Shown here piece by piece: positions 6,478 through 14,834 of a stretch of DNA of 64,000 bases. The stretch's first letter is position 1, and each line of letters begins with the position of its first letter. The DNA comes from Pararhodobacter aggregans (GTDB lineage: Bacteria > Pseudomonadota > Alphaproteobacteria > Rhodobacterales > Rhodobacteraceae). Where the stretch lies: the NCBI RefSeq assembly GCF_003075525.1, contig NZ_QDDR01000002.1, forward strand, positions 248,001 through 312,000, given 5' to 3'. The position numbers and the translations under genes were made by a program. Below the pieces are notes generated by a model, which was not told the DNA's origin, ran no database searches, and worked only from the letters and a program-made list of their open reading frames with translations.

Positions 6478-7209
6478 ATGACCGATAGCCCCAAGCCCGA
6501 CCTGCCGCCGCATCCCGCGCTCGCCGCGCTCAGGACGCATCGCAATTTCTATGGCCGCGTCCATGGCAAGACCCTGCGCCCCAACCAGCGCGGCTATCTG
6601 TCCGAGTTGCTGCCCAGACTGCGGCTGAGGAACGTCTCGATCGACGAAAACCCGGACCGGCTGCCTCTGGACCTCGACGCCGCGCTGCCCGGGCAGGGGC
6701 CCTGGTGGCTGGAGGTGGGTTTCGGCGGCGGCGAGCATATGGCGGGCATGGCGCGGGCCTATCCTGACCAGCGGATCATCGGCTGCGAGCCTTTCGTCAA
6801 CGGCGTGGCCATGGCGCTGGGCCTCTTGGCCGAGGATCCCTGCCCGAACCTGCTGCTGCATCCGGGCGATGTGCGCGACCTTTTCGACGTGCTGCCGGAC
6901 GGGGCCTTTTCCAGGGTCTTCCTGAACTACCCCGATCCCTGGCCGAAAGCCCGCCACCACCGGCGCCGCTTCGTCACGCAGGAGCATCTGGTGCCCCTCT
7001 TCGCCGCCTGCGCGCCGGGGGCCGAGTTCCGCGTCGCGACCGATATCCCCGATTACGCCCGCCAGACCCGCGAGGAAGTGCCGCTCGCCGGTTTCGTGCC
7101 GGTCTCGGACAGTGCCGAGCCCTGGGCGGACTGGATCTCGACCCGATATGAGAAGAAGGCCCTGCGCGAAGGCCGGGTGCCCCGGTATCTGACCTATCGC
7201 AAGCCGTGA
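6478..7209 (+). CDS. trmB: tRNA (guanine-N7)-methyltransferase
   Basis: A 243-residue SAM-dependent enzyme that methylates G46 in the variable loop of tRNA. The SAM-binding motif EVGFGGGEHMAGMA (about residues 78-91) and the family motifs NYPDPWPKARHHRRRF and FRVATDIPDYA are intact. Length is normal. AGGAG lies eight bases before ATG. It is followed by a convergent small membrane protein gene. The assignment is secure. Confidence 0.96.
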   Translation: MTDSPKPDLPPHPALAALRTHRNFYGRVHGKTLRPNQRGYLSELLPRLRLRNVSIDENPDRLPLDLDAALPGQGPWWLEVGFGGGEHMAGMARAYPDQRIIGCEPFVNGVAMALGLLAEDPCPNLLLHPGDVRDLFDVLPDGAFSRVFLNYPDPWPKARHHRRRFVTQEHLVPLFAACAPGAEFRVATDIPDYARQTREEVPLAGFVPVSDSAEPWADWISTRYEKKALREGRVPRYLTYRKP

Positions 7210-7243: not shown

Positions 7244-7561
7244 TCAGGGCAGGCTGGTGCGGCTGACCGGGGCGCCGCCCTCGGGCCGGTAGAGCAGGAT
7301 TTCCCCGGCCTCGGTCACCACCACCAGCCAGTCGCGGGCGAAGGTGACGGCGGCGGGGGCGGCGCCGTCGGGCAGCTCGACGGTCTCGGGCAGCGCGGGC
7401 AGGGGCGCGCGTGCGCCCAGCCGCGTGACAAGCAGCCCGACGATCGCTAGAAGCCCCAGGATCATCACCGCGGTCAGCGTGGTGACCAGCAGTTTCAGAA
7501 AACGCAGATCGGCAGGGAGTTGCGGCGTGTCGTCATCGGAAGACTTGTCGGGGGAAGACAT
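7244..7561 (-). CDS. Small single-pass membrane protein (DUF6476-like)
   Basis: A 105-residue protein with a short acidic N-terminus, one transmembrane helix (about residues 24-46, LLVTTLTAVMILGLLAIVGL) and a soluble C-terminal part of about 55 residues (FARDWLVVVTEAGEILLYRP). It resembles the uncharacterised DUF6476 family, which I associate with a position divergent to rluD in Rhodobacterales. Its start codon overlaps the rluD start codon on the opposite strand by two bases. Function unknown. Confidence 0.75.
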   Translation of the reverse strand: MSSPDKSSDDDTPQLPADLRFLKLLVTTLTAVMILGLLAIVGLLVTRLGARAPLPALPETVELPDGAAPAAVTFARDWLVVVTEAGEILLYRPEGGAPVSRTSLP

Positions 7562-8603
7562 GGACGGCGAGGCCCTCGAACTCGTGGTGGTGATCGGCGC
7601 GAACCCGCCCGAGCGCCTTGATAAGGCCTTGGCGCGCGATGTGCCAGAAGAAGCGTCGCTGTCGCGCTCACGGCTGATGAGGCTGATCGCCGAGGGGGGG
7701 GTGAGCCGCGGCGGCGTCGCCCTGACCGACACCAAGGCCAGGGTGGCCGAGGGCGACGAGATCGTGGTGCAGATCGAGGCGGCCATCGAGCTGGAGGCGC
7801 GGCCCGAGGATATCCCCCTCAGCGTGGTCTACGAGGATGACGAGCTGATCGTCATCGACAAGCCCGCCGGCATGGTGGTGCATCCCGCCCCCGGCACGCC
7901 GCGCGGCACGCTGGTCAATGCGCTGCTGCATCATTGCGGCGACACGCTGTCGGGGATCGGCGGCGCCAAGCGGCCCGGCATCGTGCACCGGATCGACAAG
8001 GAGACCTCGGGCCTCCTGGTCGTGGCCAAGACCGACCGGGCGCATCACGGCCTCGCCGCGCAATTCGAGGCGCATTCGGTGGAACGCCTCTATCTGGCGC
8101 TGGTCAACGGCGTGCCGGATGCGGGCGATCCGCGGCTCAAGGGCATCCGCGGCGTCAGTTTCGAGCCGGGCGGCGTGGTCAAGATCACCACACGGCTGGA
8201 CCGGCACCGGCACGAGCGGCAGAAGCAGGCGGTCTTCTTCGACCGCGGGCGCCATGCAGTGACGCGGGCCCGGGTGCTGGAGGCGATCGGCGCGCCGCCG
8301 CAGGTCTCGCTGGTGGAATGTCGGCTGGAGACGGGGCGCACGCATCAGATCCGCGTGCACATGGCGCACGCCGGGCACGGGCTGGTCGGCGATCCGGTCT
8401 ATGGCGGGCGGCGCAAGGTCTCGGCCAATGCCCTGCCGCCGGGCGGGGCCGAGGCGGTGGCGACCTTCCCGCGGCAGGCGCTGCACGCGGCGACGCTGGG
8501 GTTCACCCATCCCAAGAGCGAAGAGCGGCTGACGTTCGTCTCGCCGCTCCCGCCGGATTTCGAGGATCTGCTGGCGGCGCTGGGCGCGCCGCGTCAGGCC
8601 TGA
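7560..8603 (+). CDS. rluD: Ribosomal large-subunit pseudouridine synthase, RluD type
   Basis: A 347-residue RNA-modifying enzyme with an N-terminal S4 domain (about residues 17-80) and a catalytic domain containing GIVHRIDKETSGLLVVAKT; the catalytic Asp is residue 146. RluD-type enzymes make pseudouridines in helix 69 of 23S rRNA. The motif LETGRTHQIRVHMAHAGHGL follows as expected. The start at 7560 matches the beginning of the S4 domain; the frame is open upstream, but earlier starts would add unrelated sequence and run over the divergent gene. RluA/C/D subclass is less certain than family. Confidence 0.93.
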   Translation: MDGEALELVVVIGANPPERLDKALARDVPEEASLSRSRLMRLIAEGGVSRGGVALTDTKARVAEGDEIVVQIEAAIELEARPEDIPLSVVYEDDELIVIDKPAGMVVHPAPGTPRGTLVNALLHHCGDTLSGIGGAKRPGIVHRIDKETSGLLVVAKTDRAHHGLAAQFEAHSVERLYLALVNGVPDAGDPRLKGIRGVSFEPGGVVKITTRLDRHRHERQKQAVFFDRGRHAVTRARVLEAIGAPPQVSLVECRLETGRTHQIRVHMAHAGHGLVGDPVYGGRRKVSANALPPGGAEAVATFPRQALHAATLGFTHPKSEERLTFVSPLPPDFEDLLAALGAPRQA

Positions 8604-8607
8604 GCCC

Positions 8608-8952
8608 TCAGCAGTTGCGGCCGCGGCCGACCGGGTCGGTGTAATAGGGGCCGACGTCGCTGTCGGTGCAGGCGCGGCGCCCGCGGCCATTGCCGACCGG
8701 GTCCGAGGGGTCGCGGTCGGTGATGCCCGTGCGCTGCACGACCACCACCCGGCTGCCGCCCCGGCCGTTGCCGACGGGGTCCGAGGGGTCGGCATCGGTC
8801 ACGCCGGTGCTGACGCAACCGGCCAGAACGGTCGTGCCGCCGAAGGTGCCGAGCAGGAAGGCGCGGCGGCCAAAGCCGTGGTTGGTGCTGATGTCAGCTT
8901 CGGTGAGCGTGGCTTTTCCCGGCTTGGATCCGGGCTTGGCTGCGTCCGACAT
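8608..8952 (-). CDS. Repeat protein 3: RR-leader lipoprotein with TD..DPxGNGRG repeats
   Basis: A 114-residue protein. The first 49 residues are a leader with a charged start, the motif TLTEADI (15-21), a twin-arginine segment GRRAFLLG (28-35), a hydrophobic stretch and a lipobox VLAGC (Cys 46). Three repeats follow: GVTDADPSDPVGNGRG, GITDRDPSDPVGNGRG, and a last unit CTDSDVGPYYTDPVGRGRNC bracketed by two cysteines. It appears to be exported and lipidated. It is the short paralogue of the two larger repeat proteins next door. The start at 8952 was chosen because it aligns the leader with those of the paralogues; the frame remains open to 9018. I recognise no named family. Confidence 0.75.
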   Translation of the reverse strand: MSDAAKPGSKPGKATLTEADISTNHGFGRRAFLLGTFGGTTVLAGCVSTGVTDADPSDPVGNGRGGSRVVVVQRTGITDRDPSDPVGNGRGRRACTDSDVGPYYTDPVGRGRNC

Positions 8953-9090
8953 GCGATTCACTTTCCAAATATGATGAGTATATGACCCGACATTGACGGC
9001 AAAAATGTTGCCGGTCAAGCAGTTCGCAGGGCGTTTGCGGGGTCGGGAGAGGCCGCGCCCGGGCGGGACCCGGCGCGGCCTCGGGGTGGG

Positions 9091-9654
9091 TCAGCGGCGC
9101 GGGCCGCGGCCGTAACCGGCCTGATCGGCGGTGGCGCCGGAATCGGAATCGGTCATGCCGGTGCGGTTGCCGCCGGGGCCGCGCCCGTTGCCGCCGGGAT
9201 CGGCCATGCCGCCCGAATCCTGGTCGGTCATGCCCGAGGGGCCGCTGCCGCGGCCATTGCCCGCGGGATCGGCGCTGGCGCCGCTGTCGGAATCGGTGAG
9301 GCCGGTGCGGCCGCCGCCGCGACCATTGCCCGCGGGGTCGGCGCCGGAGCCGCTGTCCGAGTCGGTGAGACCGGTGCGGCCGCCGCCACGGCCGTTGCCC
9401 GCCGGATCAGCGCTGGAGCCACTGTCCGAGTCGGTCAGCCCCGAGCGCGAACCACGGCCGTTGCCGGCGGGGTCGGCGCTGGAGCCGCTGTCGGAATCGG
9501 TGAGGCCGGTCTGGGCGCTCGCCACCCGGGTCTGGGCCAGGGCCGCGACACCGGCCGCGGCGCCCAGCAGGAGCGAGCGGCGGCCAATCCCGGAACGGGT
9601 GGAAATGTCGGAATCGGTCAATGTCTTCTTCTTGGGATCGTCGGCGTCAGCCAT
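9091..9654 (-). CDS. Repeat protein 2: RR-leader protein with six TDSDSG/GNGRG repeats
   Basis: A 187-residue protein with a 49-residue leader (TLTDSDI at 11-17, twin arginine GRRSLLLG at 24-31, hydrophobic GAAAGVAALAQ, likely signal peptidase site after VASA at residue 47). Residues 50-187 are six repeats of 22-25 residues with the pattern G(L/M)TD(S/Q)DSG..AD..G(N/Y)GRG. The mature protein would be composed almost only of Gly, Asp, Ser, Ala, Arg and Thr and has no cysteine. The DxDxG...D spacing recalls calcium-binding loops, but this is inference. It is paralogous to the flanking proteins and lies near a divergent JmjC hydroxylase gene. Confidence 0.78.
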   Translation of the reverse strand: MADADDPKKKTLTDSDISTRSGIGRRSLLLGAAAGVAALAQTRVASAQTGLTDSDSGSSADPAGNGRGSRSGLTDSDSGSSADPAGNGRGGGRTGLTDSDSGSGADPAGNGRGGGRTGLTDSDSGASADPAGNGRGSGPSGMTDQDSGGMADPGGNGRGPGGNRTGMTDSDSGATADQAGYGRGPRR

Positions 9655-9687
9655 GATGCTCTCGTGATGAAGGGATAAAGATGCTGC

Positions 9688-9715
9688 ACTCTAGCCGCGG
9701 CCGCGTTTCGGTCAA
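9688..9715 (-). promoter_or_regulatory. Putative sigma-70 promoter of repeat protein 2
   Basis: On the minus strand TTGACC, 16 bases, TAGAGT precede the coding start by about 35 bases. The -35 element and the bases GAAACG after it recur upstream of repeat protein 1. Confidence 0.5.
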
Positions 9716-9822
9716 GCGCCGCCGCATCACACTCGCGCAGGGGCCCGGAGGGTGGCGCCCGGCGCCTGCGGGCGGCACCGGATCGACGCCGCTCGCAAGG
9801 ATGCCCGAAGGGGCGGACCGCC

Positions 9823-11070
9823 TCAGCGCCAGCGTTTGCTGGGCCGCTGGGGCAGGCCGGGCTGCATCGGTGCGCCGCCCCCGGTGCTGGCGCCCTGCGG
9901 GTCGGAAATCACCGCGTCCTGGTCGGAGGCGCCAAAGCCCGGCACCTTGCCACCGCTGGGCGGCGGGCGCCCGCTGCTGCCCCGGCCATTGCCGACCGGA
10001 TCGGCCGAGGGGCCGCTGTCCTGATCGGTCAGACCCGTGCCGCGCCCGGCCGAGCCGCGGCCGTTGCCGACGGGGTCGGCGGTAGGGCCGCTGTCGGAAT
10101 CGGTGAGGCCGGTGCCGCGGCCGACCGAACCCCGACCGTTCCCGACCGGGTCGGCGCCCGCGCCGCTATCCGAGTCAGTGAGTCCCGTCCGGCTTCCGCC
10201 GCCGCGTCCGTTGCCAGCCGGGTCGGCGCCCGCGCCGCTGTCGGAGTCGGTGAGGCCGGTGCGACTGCCACCGCCGCGACCGTTCCCGGCAGGGTCGGCG
10301 CCCGCGCCGCTGTCGGAGTCGGTGAGTCCCGTCCGGCTGCCGCCGCCGCGTCCGTTCCCGGCAGGGTCAGCCCCGGCGCCGCTGTCGGAATCGGTGAGGC
10401 CGGTGCGGCTTCCGCCGCCGCGTCCGTTCCCTGCCGGGTCGGCGCCCGCGCCGCTGTCGGAGTCGGTGAGGCCCGTCCGGCTTCCGCCGCCGCGACCGTT
10501 CCCGGCCGGGTCAGCCCCGGCGCCGCTGTCGGAGTCGGTGAGGCCGGTGCGACTGCCACCGCCGCGACCATTGCCGGCCGGGTCGGCGCCCGCGCCGCTG
10601 TCGGAATCGGTGAGACCCGTCCGGCTGCCACCACCCCGTCCGTTCCCGGCCGGGTCGGCGCCCGCGCCGCTGTCGGAATCGGTGAGGCCGGTGCGACTGC
10701 CACCACCACCACCGCCGCCACGTCCGTTGCCCGCGGGGTCGGCCGAGGCGCCGCTGTCCGAGTCGGTGAGGCCTGTCCGGCTGCCGCCGCCCCGACCGTT
10801 CCCGGCGGGATCCGCCGAGGCACCGCTGTCCGAATCGGTGAGGCCCGAGCCGCTTCGCCCGCCGCCACCCCGGCCGTTGCCGGCGGGGTCGGCCGAGGCG
10901 CCACTGTCGGTGTCGGTGAAACCCGTCTGGGCGCCCGCGACCTTGCTCTGGGCCAGGGTCGCGACGCCCGCCGCGGCCCCCAGCAGCACGGAGCGCCGTC
11001 CAAGAGCGCTGCCGGTTCGGATATCGTCATCACTTAATGTCTTGCGGGGTTTTTTCGACTCGTCGGCCAT
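9823..11070 (-). CDS. Repeat protein 1: RR-leader protein with thirteen TDSDSG/GNGRG repeats
   Basis: A 415-residue protein with the same 49-residue leader layout as repeat protein 2: TLSDDDI at 11-17, GRRSVLLG at 24-31, GAAAGVATLAQ, and a likely cleavage site after VAGA. Thirteen repeats follow (residues 50-364), mostly 24 residues long, with core GLTDSDSGAGADPAGNGRG; seven consecutive units are identical at protein level. The last units diverge (DPVGNGRG) and the protein ends in a Pro/Gly-rich tail with one decayed unit (GASDQDAVISDPQG) and a basic end PSKRWR. It is predicted to be exported by the Tat pathway. No known family was recognised. It is divergent from the JmjC gene with a gap of only 102 bases. 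Confidence 0.78.
   Translation of the reverse strand: MADESKKPRKTLSDDDIRTGSALGRRSVLLGAAAGVATLAQSKVAGAQTGFTDTDSGASADPAGNGRGGGGRSGSGLTDSDSGASADPAGNGRGGGSRTGLTDSDSGASADPAGNGRGGGGGGGSRTGLTDSDSGAGADPAGNGRGGGSRTGLTDSDSGAGADPAGNGRGGGSRTGLTDSDSGAGADPAGNGRGGGSRTGLTDSDSGAGADPAGNGRGGGSRTGLTDSDSGAGADPAGNGRGGGSRTGLTDSDSGAGADPAGNGRGGGSRTGLTDSDSGAGADPAGNGRGGGSRTGLTDSDSGAGADPVGNGRGSVGRGTGLTDSDSGPTADPVGNGRGSAGRGTGLTDQDSGPSADPVGNGRGSSGRPPPSGGKVPGFGASDQDAVISDPQGASTGGGAPMQPGLPQRPSKRWR
9979..10923 (-). repeat. Tandem 72-78 bp coding repeat array
   Basis: Thirteen tandem units encode the repeats of the 415-residue protein. Units 4-10 (10186-10689) are each 72 bases and encode identical peptides but differ at synonymous positions (for example CCG/CCA and CGT/CGA in the Arg and Gly codons), so purifying selection or gene conversion is plausible. 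Units have no non-coding spacers. Confidence 0.85.
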
Positions 11071-11172
11071 TGCACACGACCTCCCGTTCGTGACTAATTG
11101 GCAAAGCGTAGGGACAGGTTCCGTTTCGGGTCAAGGAAACCCTGCCGGATGCCCAAAAAAAGGGAGTTTTTC
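11071..11172. promoter_or_regulatory. Divergent promoter region between repeat protein 1 and the JmjC gene
   Basis: On the minus strand CTTGACCCGAAACG lies about 65 bases upstream of repeat protein 1 and shares its core with the promoter of repeat protein 2. On the plus strand a clear ribosome binding site (AAAAAAAGGGAG) precedes the JmjC start. The short shared region suggests co-regulation of the repeat protein and the enzyme. Confidence 0.45.
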
Positions 11173-12372
11173 ATGAAAGATAATCAGGATTCACCCGCTC
11201 CGGTTGATTTTGCGAGCGTCATTGCGCCCCTCACGCCGCAAAGCTTTTTTGTCGACTATTTCGAAAAGAAACACCTCGTCATTCGCCGCGATAATCCCGA
11301 TTATTTCTCTAGCCTTTTGTCGGTGGCGGAAATTGACCGGGTGCTGACGCAGCAAATGATCCCGGGCGAAGAAATGCAGATGGTGCGCACCGGCAAGGGG
11401 ATCCCGGCCGAGGAGTTCCAGACGCCCTCGGGCTTCATCGACCCGGTGCGGGTGGCGCGGCTCTTCGACGAAGGCGCGACGATCGTGCTGCCCGGCTTGC
11501 AGAAGCGGGTGGCGGCGCTGGCGGCCTATTGCCGCTCGATGGAGACGGTGTTCAACGTCGATCTGCAGACCAACATCTACTTCACGCCCGAGGGCTCGCA
11601 GGGGTTCAAGACCCATTACGACAGCCATGATGTCTTCGTCCTGCAGGTGGCGGGCTCGAAGGAATGGAACATCTACGAAAGCTCGGAGCTGGAGCTGCCG
11701 CTGCGCAGCCAGGCCTTCCAGCCCGAGGGCTTCAAGGCGGGCGCGCTGATCGACACCTTCACGCTGCATCCAGGTGACATGTGTTATGTGCCGCGCGGCG
11801 TGGTGCATGATGCGCGTGCGACCGAGGAATTGTCGCTGCACATCACCACCGGCCTGCTGACGCCGCGCTGGATCGACCTGATCGTCGATGCGGTCAACCA
11901 GCTGGCGCTGGTCGATCCGGCGTTCCGCCGGGCGATCCCGCCGGGCCATGCCAATGACGGTTTCGACCGGACCGAGGCGCGGCAGGTCTTCCGCGACCTG
12001 CTGGCCCGTGCCGTCGAGCGGATCGAACCGGACCGGACCCTCGATTACTACGCCCATGATTTCCGCAGCCGCCGGGTGCCGGTGGTGCCGGGGCAATTGT
12101 TCCAGACCTTCGACGCGGGCGCCGTGCAGCCCGGCGTGGTGCTGGAGCGCCGGCCCGACCTGATCTACGCCATCGGCGTGGTCGGCGAGGAGGTGGTGCT
12201 GGGCGTCTACGGCACCGAGATCGCCTTCCCCGCCCATGTGGAGGAAAGCCTGCGCGAGGCGATGCGGCAGGATCGGGTCACGGTGGGCGAACTGGCGGGC
12301 GACCTCGACGAGGCGGGGCAGGCGGTGATGCTGCGCCGTCTGGTGCGCGAGGGCGTCTTCGCCCTCGTCTGA
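11173..12372 (+). CDS. JmjC/cupin-4 domain Fe(II)/2-oxoglutarate hydroxylase (ribosomal-oxygenase-like)
   Basis: A 399-residue protein resembling the YcfD/NO66/MINA53 group of protein hydroxylases. The iron ligands are visible: H148 and D150 in KTHYDSHDVFVLQ and H212 in GDMCYVPRGVVHDA. A helical C-terminal region of about 170 residues follows, as in YcfD, where it contributes to dimerisation and a winged-helix domain. Known relatives hydroxylate Arg or His of ribosomal proteins in the cytoplasm. It is divergent from three genes for Gly/Arg/Asp-rich repeat proteins, which makes those proteins candidate substrates; this is inference. The first 50 codons are richer in A/T than the rest. Hydroxylation of ribosomal protein L16 is the conservative alternative role. 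Confidence 0.85.
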   Translation: MKDNQDSPAPVDFASVIAPLTPQSFFVDYFEKKHLVIRRDNPDYFSSLLSVAEIDRVLTQQMIPGEEMQMVRTGKGIPAEEFQTPSGFIDPVRVARLFDEGATIVLPGLQKRVAALAAYCRSMETVFNVDLQTNIYFTPEGSQGFKTHYDSHDVFVLQVAGSKEWNIYESSELELPLRSQAFQPEGFKAGALIDTFTLHPGDMCYVPRGVVHDARATEELSLHITTGLLTPRWIDLIVDAVNQLALVDPAFRRAIPPGHANDGFDRTEARQVFRDLLARAVERIEPDRTLDYYAHDFRSRRVPVVPGQLFQTFDAGAVQPGVVLERRPDLIYAIGVVGEEVVLGVYGTEIAFPAHVEESLREAMRQDRVTVGELAGDLDEAGQAVMLRRLVREGVFALV

Positions 12373-12386
12373 GGCCGGGCGGGTCG

Positions 12387-13820
12387 ATGGAGACGGGCTT
12401 TTGGGTCGGCGTCGCGCTGTCCCTGCATTACGCCTTGCAGATCGCGGTCCTGATCCGGGCGCTGACCCGACCGGACCGCGAACCCGCCTCGCGCGTGGCC
12501 TGGGTGCTGGTGATCCTCGGCATTCCGGCGGCCGGGATCGCGCTTTACCTGATGCTGGGCGAGGTCAGCCCCGGCCGCCGCCGGGTGGCGCGGATGCGCG
12601 CGGTGCGGCAGGCGCTGCCGGTCGCGGTGCCGGGGCAGGGGGCGGCCTCCTTGCCGGCGCCCGCCCGGGCGGCCTTTGGTCGCGGGGCGGCGGTCAACGG
12701 CTTTTCGCCGGTCGGCGGCAACCGGGCCGAGCTGGCGGCGGATGCGGATGCCGCCATCGCCGGGATCGTGGCCGATATCGAGGCCGCGCGCGAGAGCGTG
12801 CATATCCTGGTCTATATCTGGCTCGACGATGGCAACGGCCGGGCGCTGATGGCGGCGCTGGCGCGCGCGGCGGCGCGGGGCGTGACCTGCCGGGCGATGG
12901 TGGACGGGCTCGGCTCGCGAGGGGTGCTGAAAAGCGCGGCCTGGGCGGCGATGAAGGCGGCAGGCGTCAGGACCGGCATCGCTTTCGACACCCGCTGGGC
13001 GGCGGCGCGGCTGCTTCTGGGCCGGATCGACATCCGCAACCACCGCAAGATCTTTGTCATCGACGGCCGCATCGCCTGGTGCGGCAGCCAGAACTGCGCC
13101 GATCCCGCCTTTTTGCCGAAGGCCCGTTTCGCGCCCTGGGTCGATATCATGCTGCGCATCGAAGGGCCGGTCGCCTGGCAGACGCAGGCGCTGTTTGCCG
13201 CCGACTGGATGGCGCAGGGGGGCGACGACATCACCGGCGCGCTGGCCGGGGCTCCGGCGACCCCGGAGGGCGGTTTCCCGGCGCTGGTGGTGGGAACCGG
13301 GCCTGACCTGTCGGCCAATGCGGTGCCGGACATGGTGGCGCTGCTTCTGGCGGCGGCCGAGCGCGAGGTGGTGATCTCGACCCCCTATTTCGTGCCGACG
13401 CAGGGGCTGGACGAGGCGATCCGCGCCACCGCCCTGCGGGGCGTTTCGGTGACGCTGATCCTGCCCGCGCGCAACGATTCCCGGATGGTGGCCTGGGCCA
13501 GCCGCTCGACCTATGCCGGGCTCCTCAGGGCCGGGGTGGCGATCCATGAATTCCAGCCGGGGCTGTTGCACGCCAAGACCCTGACGGTGGACGGCGGGCT
13601 GGCGATGATCGGTTCGGCCAACCTCGACCGGCGCAGTTTCGAACTGAATTTCGAGAATGTGATGCTGATCGCCGACGCCCCGACCTGCGGCTTGATCCGG
13701 GAGCGTCAGCAGGTCTATCTGGGGCAGAGCAGGCAGGTTTCGGGGGATGACGTCTCGGGCTGGAGCCTGCCGAAGCGATTGCTTTACAATGCTGCGGGCA
13801 TCGTCAGTCCGGTGTTGTGA
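12387..13820 (+). CDS. cls: Cardiolipin synthase
   Basis: A 477-residue phospholipase D superfamily enzyme that condenses two phosphatidylglycerol molecules into cardiolipin at the inner membrane. Two N-terminal transmembrane helices (about residues 5-24 and 33-54) precede two HKD catalytic motifs: NHRKIFVIDG near residue 214 and LHAKTLTVDG near residue 393, each followed by the family's GSxN element (GSQN, GSAN). Length and layout match bacterial ClsA. It starts 14 bases after the JmjC gene, so the two may be cotranscribed. Confidence 0.93.
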   Translation: METGFWVGVALSLHYALQIAVLIRALTRPDREPASRVAWVLVILGIPAAGIALYLMLGEVSPGRRRVARMRAVRQALPVAVPGQGAASLPAPARAAFGRGAAVNGFSPVGGNRAELAADADAAIAGIVADIEAARESVHILVYIWLDDGNGRALMAALARAAARGVTCRAMVDGLGSRGVLKSAAWAAMKAAGVRTGIAFDTRWAAARLLLGRIDIRNHRKIFVIDGRIAWCGSQNCADPAFLPKARFAPWVDIMLRIEGPVAWQTQALFAADWMAQGGDDITGALAGAPATPEGGFPALVVGTGPDLSANAVPDMVALLLAAAEREVVISTPYFVPTQGLDEAIRATALRGVSVTLILPARNDSRMVAWASRSTYAGLLRAGVAIHEFQPGLLHAKTLTVDGGLAMIGSANLDRRSFELNFENVMLIADAPTCGLIRERQQVYLGQSRQVSGDDVSGWSLPKRLLYNAAGIVSPVL

Positions 13821-13943: not shown

Positions 13944-14834
13944 GTGAGCGATTACGCCAGTCTTCCCGCCCCCAGCCCCGAACAGGGCCTGAACCGGTAT
14001 CTGCAGGAGATCCGGCGCTTCCCGATGCTGGAGCCCGAGGAGGAATACATGCTGGCCAAGCGCTGGGTGGACCACCAGGACACCGGCGCCGCGCACAAGC
14101 TGGTGACCAGCCATCTGCGGCTGGCGGCCAAGATCGCCATGGGCTACCGCGGCTATGGCCTGCCGCAGGCCGAGGTGATTTCCGAGGCGAATGTGGGCCT
14201 GATGCAGGCGGTGAAACGCTTCGACCCCGAAAAGGGCTTCCGGCTGGCGACCTATGCCATGTGGTGGATCCGCGCCTCGATCCAGGAATACATCCTGCGG
14301 TCCTGGTCGATGGTGAAGCTGGGCACGACCTCGGCGCAGAAGAAGCTGTTCTTCAACCTGAGGAAGGCCAAGGCCCGTATCGGCGCCATCGAGGAGGGCG
14401 ATCTGCGCCCCGAGAACGTCAAGCGGCTGGCCGAGGATCTGTCGGTCACCGAAGACGAGGTCGTCGACATGAACCGCCGTCTGGCGGGGTCGGATGCCTC
14501 GCTCAACGTGACGGTGGGCGGCGACGAGGGGTCGTCCTCGTGGCAGGACTGGCTCGAGGATGAGGATGCCGACCAGGCCGGGGCCTATGCCGAGCGCGAC
14601 GAATTCGAGGCGCGTCAGGCGATGCTGATGGAAGCGATGGACGTGCTGAACGAGCGCGAGCGCGACGTGCTGACCGAGCGCCGTCTGGCCGAGCCGCCGG
14701 TGACGCTGGAGGATCTGAGCACGAAATACGGCGTCTCGCGCGAGCGGATCCGCCAGATTGAGGTCCGGGCGTTTGAGAAGCTGCAGGCCCGGATGACCGA
14801 AATCGCCCGTACCAAGGGCATGATCCCGGCCTGA
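13944..14834 (+). CDS. rpoH: RNA polymerase heat-shock sigma factor
   Basis: A 296-residue sigma-32 family factor that directs RNA polymerase to heat-shock and oxidative-stress promoters. Region 2 (LRLAAKIAMGYRGYGLPQAE, then FDPEKGFRLATYAMWWIRA), the RpoH box (QKKLFFNLRKAK, residues 132-143) and region 4 (SRERIRQIEVRAFEKLQ) are all present. The start is GTG, preceded by AGGAG. Rhodobacterales often have two rpoH paralogues; sequence alone does not tell which one this is. A run of inverted repeats follows the stop codon. Confidence 0.95.
   Translation: MSDYASLPAPSPEQGLNRYLQEIRRFPMLEPEEEYMLAKRWVDHQDTGAAHKLVTSHLRLAAKIAMGYRGYGLPQAEVISEANVGLMQAVKRFDPEKGFRLATYAMWWIRASIQEYILRSWSMVKLGTTSAQKKLFFNLRKAKARIGAIEEGDLRPENVKRLAEDLSVTEDEVVDMNRRLAGSDASLNVTVGGDEGSSSWQDWLEDEDADQAGAYAERDEFEARQAMLMEAMDVLNERERDVLTERRLAEPPVTLEDLSTKYGVSRERIRQIEVRAFEKLQARMTEIARTKGMIPA

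Follow-up and report, generated by a model that had tools for sequence, protein, structure and literature searches.

The stretch of DNA considered in this study, hereafter the window, comprises 64,000 nucleotides of the Pararhodobacter aggregans contig NZ_QDDR01000002.1 (positions 248,001 to 312,000) and contains three adjacent minus-strand genes for repeat proteins with leaders for twin-arginine translocation (Tat), next to a divergently oriented gene for a JmjC oxygenase. Analysis of open reading frames (ORFs), a motif scan and inspection by eye located the three repeat genes, with 13, 6 and 3 units, at the positions reported in a preliminary description of this DNA. Repeat protein A (415 residues, 9823..11070, minus strand) holds 13 units of the type TDSDSGxxADPAGNGRG and repeat protein B (187 residues, 9091..9654, minus strand) holds six, both defined by ORF and motif scan and counted with degenerate units included. 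The start, lipobox and unit count of repeat protein C (114 residues, 8608..8952, minus strand) were assigned by eye, with the ATG at 8952 appearing a likelier start than the listed TTG at 9018, and two of its three units show, again by eye, the short form TDxDPSDPVGNGRG. In the translated ORFs, the leader of A (10924..11070, minus strand) displays an acidic box, TLSDDDIRT, which has similar counterparts in relatives and is followed by the twin-arginine motif GRRSVLLG and a hydrophobic stretch; the leader of B (9508..9654, minus strand) combines TLTDSDIST with GRRSLLLG and that of C (8815..8952, minus strand) TLTEADIST with GRRAFLLG and the lipobox LAGC. The oxygenase gene (11173..12372, plus strand) encodes 399 residues and is separated from repeat gene A, the largest of the three, by a divergent intergenic region of 102 bases from ATG to ATG (11071..11172).

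The strict 50-base motif for TDxDxGxxxDPxGxGRG is found 18 times in the window, each time in gene A or B, compared to an expectation of 0.00 from 100 dinucleotide shuffles of the window, which excludes a chance origin of the repeat. Among the 19 units of A and B, differences are mostly silent (dS, the synonymous divergence, 1.01; dN, the non-synonymous divergence, 0.118), and the low ratio of 0.12 suggests that the protein is under purifying selection. None of the repeat proteins of the window has a match above cut-off in Pfam or NCBIfam, and in an AlphaFold2 prediction of repeat protein B alone the mature part is unstructured and adopts no fold (predicted local distance difference test, pLDDT, 46). 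An EF-hand-like Ca2+ site was considered and rejected, as the spacing of the repeats appears unsuitable when judged by eye rather than by computation.

The properties of the oxygenase place it in a defined structural family. Its assignment as a JmjC_2 or ribosomal oxygenase (ROX)-type Fe(II)/2-oxoglutarate (2OG) oxygenase is based on a match to PF08007 (expect value, E, 3e-27, 95 bits at a curated cut-off of 22), on AlphaFold2 and on Foldseek, and the Fe(II) ligands H148, D150 and H212, which the preliminary description had recognised as intact, are invariant in an alignment of 43 rows. In a Foldseek search with the AlphaFold2 model (pLDDT 93), NO66 ranked best, followed by MINA53, with template modelling scores by query of 0.72-0.75 for NO66 chains and 0.56-0.72 for MINA53 chains. 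A phmmer search against the PDB identified MINA53 (103 bits, E 1e-28), NO66 (95 bits, E 5e-26) and, with a far lower score, YcfD (34 bits, E 2e-7, about 100 residues covered), and E. coli roxA reaches 28.5 bits on the profile of the JmjC family. The window JmjC is thus ROX-like, with a NO66/MINA53 fold, and other than the L16 hydroxylase. By eye, the protein contains no leader, and its C-terminal strand-helix region is interpreted as a winged helix.

The connection between enzyme and repeats is reflected in their distribution. Searches starting from the enzyme detected it in four of 149 genomes of the window's family and the repeats in the same four, an outcome that contradicts the refuting condition, set beforehand, of a JmjC gene conserved as an L16 hydroxylase irrespective of the repeats. 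In two of these four genomes (G084 and G144), the repeats hit by the profile are found on contigs other than that of the JmjC gene, and a further short Tat-leader repeat ORF adjoins the latter. Among 385 genomes of the class, 12 encode a JmjC of the same clade (best hits 429-552 bits and one second copy of 358, with the next genome at 188), and the repeat profile was found in 10 of the 385, all within these 12 (Fisher p 4e-18, uncorrected for kinship); an eleventh contains a shorter variant repeat adjoining the JmjC gene. Among 398 genomes of the phylum, eight carry the clade JmjC, four of them new genome handles and all four of these with repeats, and within one genus G851 has both components and G780 neither. 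When the three samples are combined, repeats are present in 18 of the 19 genome handles identified by their enzyme. Two genomes devoid of the clade JmjC (G251 and G843) gave weak hits to the repeat profile (E 0.003-0.04), which we read, by eye, as chance matches.

The opposite direction leads to an equivalent result. A scan of genome contigs with the repeat DNA motif alone yielded, among the matches listed, at least 116 stretches from 90 genomes (distinguished by accession prefix), and all counts of repeat ORFs, units, neighbours and linked loci given below rest on these matches; stretches of up to 8 kb were fetched and searched for the enzyme by tblastn. The preliminary description had itself set the occurrence of repeat genes without the enzyme as a test of its idea, which survives, with 88 of the 90 genomes encoding a clade JmjC. 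The gene was found inside 50 of the 116 stretches, corresponding to 50 genomes, and 38 of the remaining 40 genomes carry it elsewhere or just past the stretch (432-582 bits), with second hits in these genomes confined to 79-153 bits except for one row of 57 bits, which represents the leading portion of the G151 gene itself. At least one repeat unit, defined by a relaxed motif, is located within 1.5 kb in 25 of 30 JmjC loci from these 38 genomes and in none of 18 paralog loci. As for the two exceptions, the single motif match in a Nocardia genome (G150, no clade JmjC), in an ORF without leader, is read as chance, and in a metagenome-assembled genome (MAG, G188), where no clade JmjC was found, the repeat gene runs into the contig end. 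A contig called viral in IMG/VR (L134:9518-10066) encodes a divergent repeat protein whose leader combines an acidic box with a twin-arginine motif, with no JmjC hit within the fetched stretch; viral carriage was rejected on account of this single contig and of phage records that give weak hits with 36% coverage.

JmjC and repeat proteins thus appear as a near-obligate pair in the sampled genomes, and we regard their pairing as very likely. These results also bear on the view that the enzyme is an ordinary ribosomal oxygenase, acting on L16 or another protein, and that the repeat genes are chance neighbours. Such a role would agree with its ROX fold and with its being the sole PF08007 protein of its genome; it is already contradicted by the near-perfect co-occurrence, by a resemblance to MINA53 and NO66 that far exceeds the one to YcfD and by 145 of 149 family genomes that give no hit, and we consider it extremely improbable. 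Identity with the L16 hydroxylase in particular is ruled out by distribution and similarity.

In 42 of the 50 linked loci, the repeat ORF nearest to the enzyme gene precedes it in the same orientation; this ORF is divergent in six loci and downstream in two, with a median gap between the open frames of 104 bases. An all-versus-all comparison of 5681 open frames identified JmjC as the most widespread non-repeat neighbour family, present in 51 genomes, and ten other neighbour clusters subjected to a Pfam scan are of housekeeping type (ruvABC, transketolase, trkH, folE2 and similar), illustrating that the cassette occupies differing housekeeping contexts. In the window itself, the flanking genes encode, as identified by search, a TrmB-type methyltransferase (6478-7209) and a cardiolipin synthase (7344-8603) and, as judged by eye, RluD-like (12387-13820) and RpoH-like (13944-14834) proteins, and the cassette between these housekeeping genes looks inserted.

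With respect to export, a twin-arginine motif and hydrophobic stretch precede the first unit in 157 of 168 repeat ORFs, 69 of which contain a lipobox-like Cys, and several of the remaining 11 are truncated at the end of a contig or stretch. The window genome encodes TatC. No recurrent protease or transporter accompanying the precursor was found in the ten neighbour clusters scanned, and it is conceivable that Tat and signal peptidase replace such dedicated components. Two variations of the exported proteins were encountered: a TDSD repeat protein of an Anaerolineae MAG (L086:2079-2888) has a C-terminal tail that by eye resembles a peptidoglycan-binding domain, and in Parasphingopyxis lamellibrachiae (L033:2935-3681) a long acidic low-complexity linker extends from the lipobox-like Cys to the repeats.

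What is new here is the finding of actinobacterial relatives of the enzyme, whose genes follow small ORFs that encode Asp-rich cores and an acidic leader box resembling that of the window proteins. A tblastn search against plasmids retrieved a full-length homolog with 32% identity in Streptomyces clavuligerus (L269:7784-9179), where a 48-residue ORF, MDDKKTSLEPDEIEVIPPVSTPDFVIADNDPSDPPIAIADPDPFDPVI, ends 91 bases before the JmjC gene. Its core, ADNDPSDPP/ADPDPFDPV, contains no Arg, and with the genes for an S9 peptidase (on the opposite strand) and an ATP-binding cassette (ABC) transporter following the enzyme, the locus reads like a small cluster for a ribosomally synthesised and post-translationally modified peptide (RiPP). 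In a separate observation, a small mobilizable E. coli plasmid (L271:2699-3592) carries a weak cupin homolog next to an ABC transporter gene. With the S. clavuligerus enzyme as query, hits at E 1e-30 were obtained in 74 of 394 Actinomycetes genomes, and the best 30 loci and one more were examined, 30 of which were scored, with L290 lying too near the edge. In 27 of the 30 loci, an Asp-rich low-complexity ORF of the same orientation lies no more than 600 bases upstream, compared to 2 in the downstream and 0 and 0 in the opposite-strand controls, and at 18 alphaproteobacterial paralog loci together with L252 it was found upstream in 0 of 19 and on the opposite strand in one. The three misses (L272, L273 and L302) contain short Asp-core ORFs by eye, and a scan for the leader box recovered an Asp-rich ORF also in L290. 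A box as in the window leaders is present upstream in 18 of the best 30 actinobacterial loci, in 0 at both control positions and in 1 of the 19 other loci, there without Asp repeats, and the sequence TLRDEDIVT is common to deltaproteobacterial or myxobacterial repeat proteins and an actinobacterial precursor. In the loci L274-L301, the JmjC genes are preceded by ORFs that encode acidic leaders together with repeats of the DGGADGG or DADGTD type; most of the Asp-rich cores examined are devoid of Arg, and six precursors tried gave no Pfam or NCBIfam match above cut-off. Together, leader box and Asp-rich core suggest a RiPP-like system composed of leader and core.

The relationship is also reflected in a quick tree, containing two poorly filled rows, where a branch with a Shimodaira-Hasegawa-like approximate likelihood ratio (SH-aLRT) of 100 parts 37 TDSD enzymes, 32 actinobacterial enzymes and two others from the 18 paralogs, with the TDSD enzymes constituting one side of a branch with a support of 87. 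Given that E. coli RoxA, in the first tree, has a branch of 6.3 and pairs with L176, we rely on the two trees solely for the separation from the 18 paralogs. The second of the two other enzymes, encoded on a cyanobacterial plasmid, is found about 2.8 kb from a LanM gene and has no precursor that we could find. The fact that leader and Asp-core partners accompany this enzyme branch in Actinomycetes as well, where the repeats are quite different, argues against a functional link that would not involve contact between enzyme and substrate, such as a joint response to metal or oxygen. We regard this proposal as very unlikely, although the repeats look metal-binding by eye, and consider a relation of enzyme and substrate between JmjC and repeat proteins, as judged from sequence data, highly probable.

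The first of the two other enzymes on the coupled side of the tree (L252) is encoded in a genome from the family of the window, where its gene adjoins that of a Nif11-leader precursor (L252:2767-3051), with 40 bits to PF07862 (cut-off 23.8) and 26.3 bits in NCBIfam, below the cut-off of 32.3. This arrangement would be compatible with an oxidation of Asp or a neighbouring residue that leads to a crosslink, a macrocycle or a cleaved backbone instead of a plain alcohol, a chemistry that also resonates with the title of a work on macrocyclisation by 2OG dioxygenases in RiPPs, cited in the part of PMC12710340 consulted. Since the nearest relatives of solved structure are designated hydroxylases and the long multi-unit exported proteins are unlike small macrocyclic products, we view such an outcome as quite improbable.

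Which residue would be modified was approached from the conservation of the units, determined by leave-one-out counting in 168 repeat ORFs. In 665 of 665 units matching elsewhere, D2, D4, D10 and G15 are retained, and T or S occupies position 1 in 709 of 711 units. At position 14, N accounts for 30% and R for 28% of the 665 strict units, which led us to discard the Asn named as a candidate in the preliminary description. For the short form TDxDxxDxxGxGR, with 56 full matches, D2 is kept in 56 of 56 and D4 and D7 in 56 of 57 units. A Tat-leader ORF of genome G514 (L171:2799-3191, box TLSDDDIVS), which adjoins the first JmjC of this genome, contains SDTDPVDPIGEG units without Arg. With Asn unconserved, and with Arg absent from most actinobacterial cores and from L171, Asp is favoured over either residue. 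His was rejected as target, as it accounts for 0.6% of the mature repeat sequence, a feature that, together with the replacement of MINA53 Ser257 by an invariant Gly, sets the system apart from NO66 and MINA53, which hydroxylate His in ribosomal proteins, despite their being the best matches in sequence and fold and sharing the H-D-H ligands and an aligned substrate-contacting Tyr (Tyr136, equivalent to Tyr167 of MINA53). Lys163 of the window enzyme aligns with an Arg of E. coli RoxA, which we take to be a 2OG residue, and Asn134 with the pocket Asp of YcfD, presumably Asp118. The invariant Gly227 was assigned to the position of MINA53 Ser257 by counting along the phmmer alignment, and in the consulted part of PMC9994133 the latter residue is described to contact the target His. 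The pattern of Gly227, Tyr136 and Lys163 indicates a pocket that is unlike that of His hydroxylases and also unlike that of Arg hydroxylases.

Based on these considerations, we lean towards the hydroxylation of Asp as the chemistry of the system. In the mechanism that we find somewhat probable, two parts would act in succession, with cytoplasmic hydroxylation of Asp in every repeat by the JmjC enzyme followed by Tat-dependent export or lipid-anchoring of the protein. The enzyme would operate in the cytoplasm, the site of Fe(II) and 2OG, where its C-terminal winged-helix region, resembling a RiPP recognition element (RRE), may dock on the acidic leader box in proteins that contain one. Asp side chains would be hydroxylated in every unit, most likely at one of the positions D2, D4 or D10 of TDxDxGxxxDPxGxGRG, and the modified protein would leave the cytoplasm via Tat, with some copies becoming lipid-anchored. 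The product would be a periplasmic or surface-located polymer of Asp or hydroxy-Asp, Gly and Arg, which could plausibly bind Ca2+ or another metal.

Several observations weigh against this mechanism. R16 is also kept in 665 of 693 units (96%), and, as each stretch was selected for containing one or more strict units, the counts of Asp conservation are not free of bias. Moreover, YcfD acts on Arg and BipG on ornithine, both basic residues, as described in the consulted parts of PMC5862935 and PMC12707348, respectively. These findings bring up the same pairing with a different target, the Arg of GxGRG, which would be hydroxylated at C-3 once per unit in a YcfD-like manner. Besides its conservation, this Arg is located within a Gly-rich stretch, reminiscent of the Arg preceding MGKGKG in uL16 that is hydroxylated by YcfD-type enzymes (PMC5862935, in the part consulted), and the position aligned with MINA53 Ser257 is Gly in the JmjC family and likewise in E. 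coli RoxA. We nevertheless consider Arg an unlikely target, since it is missing from most actinobacterial Asp-rich cores and from the Tat-leader variant L171, since 28 of 693 units have another residue in its place, in contrast to D2, D4 and D10, which never vary, and since the residue aligned with the YcfD pocket Asp is here Asn134. The comparison of pockets itself rests on alignment rather than on the structure of a complex. Concerning the leader, the acidic box was found in 39 of 162 twin-arginine repeat ORFs and in 0 of the Maricaulis, Parasphingopyxis and Erythrobacter loci, and it thus cannot be a universal docking site; concerning the core, the frequent DGGADGG-type repeats of Actinomycetes leave Asp-richness, and not the exact core, as common trait. 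Finally, with respect to the pairing, one class genome (G389) encodes a clade JmjC with a non-repeat gene as upstream neighbour, on a contig that ends 40 bases past the hit, and the repeat profile found nothing better than E 0.15 across this genome, and the two directions of search overlap in at least the genomes G011, G084, G144, G851, G727, G418 and G336.

Asp hydroxylation nevertheless remains the reading that we prefer, and in the interpretation offered by the preliminary description, the pairing, the export by Tat and the multi-core, RiPP-like logic stand, supported by co-occurrence in both directions, by adjacency in several housekeeping contexts and by the leader box common to actinobacterial precursors, whereas the choice of residues has been narrowed, with Asp favoured and Asn abandoned. 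The described system shows parallels to known cases of protein modification. In collagen-type and EGF-type hydroxylation of eukaryotes, a dedicated 2OG oxygenase modifies many sites of an exported repeat that is rich in Gly or contains Asp, prior to its secretion; these systems differ in their enzyme families, their repeats and the use of the secretory pathway rather than Tat. YcfD/RoxA belongs to the same superfamily as the window JmjC and its target residue is also found in a Gly-rich stretch (PMC5862935, in the part consulted), but it has a ribosomal substrate, a far weaker sequence match and an Arg where the JmjC family has Lys163. RiPP systems with JmjC tailoring enzymes, such as BipG of biphenomycin, described in the consulted part of PMC12707348 as an ornithine hydroxylase with relatives in that of PMC12257519, and PF08007 proteins with RRE-like domains, share the location of leader-plus-core precursors beside a JmjC oxygenase. 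They differ from the window system, whose core is a long Tat-leader repeat protein with no evident small product. According to the part of PMC12710340 (2025) consulted, the bacterial homologs that most closely resemble the PF08007-RRE proteins of fish and algae occupy RiPP-like contexts. The arrangement characteristic of RiPPs, a conserved-leader precursor with variable or repeated core beside a modifying enzyme, is found here, with the box present in only the mentioned fraction of TDSD ORFs. In a literature search on repeat and core strings, JmjC, cupin and RiPP, whose coverage excludes most subscription papers, we came across no description of the TDSD repeat family.

Collectively, our study proposes a likely substrate for a branch of bacterial JmjC proteins that are mostly annotated as cupin in plasmid records, and it links ROX enzymes, known as modifiers of the ribosome, to the leader-and-core logic of RiPPs. 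We tentatively raise the possibility, which we hold with some doubt, that these proteins define a widespread new class of leader-guided JmjC systems that hydroxylate Asp at many points of low-complexity repeat proteins and comprise two branches, one in Alphaproteobacteria and Myxococcota whose products are exported by Tat and to which the window belongs, and one in Actinomycetes with small precursors. The proposal predicts that the exported repeat proteins of genera such as Maricaulis, Erythrobacter and Parasphingopyxis are heavily modified, with at least one oxygen atom added per repeat unit, and it may bear on the ancestry of the winged-helix region of ROX enzymes. If true, the system would constitute a bacterial counterpart of collagen-type hydroxylation, yielding exported poly-(hydroxy)aspartyl metal-binding polymers.

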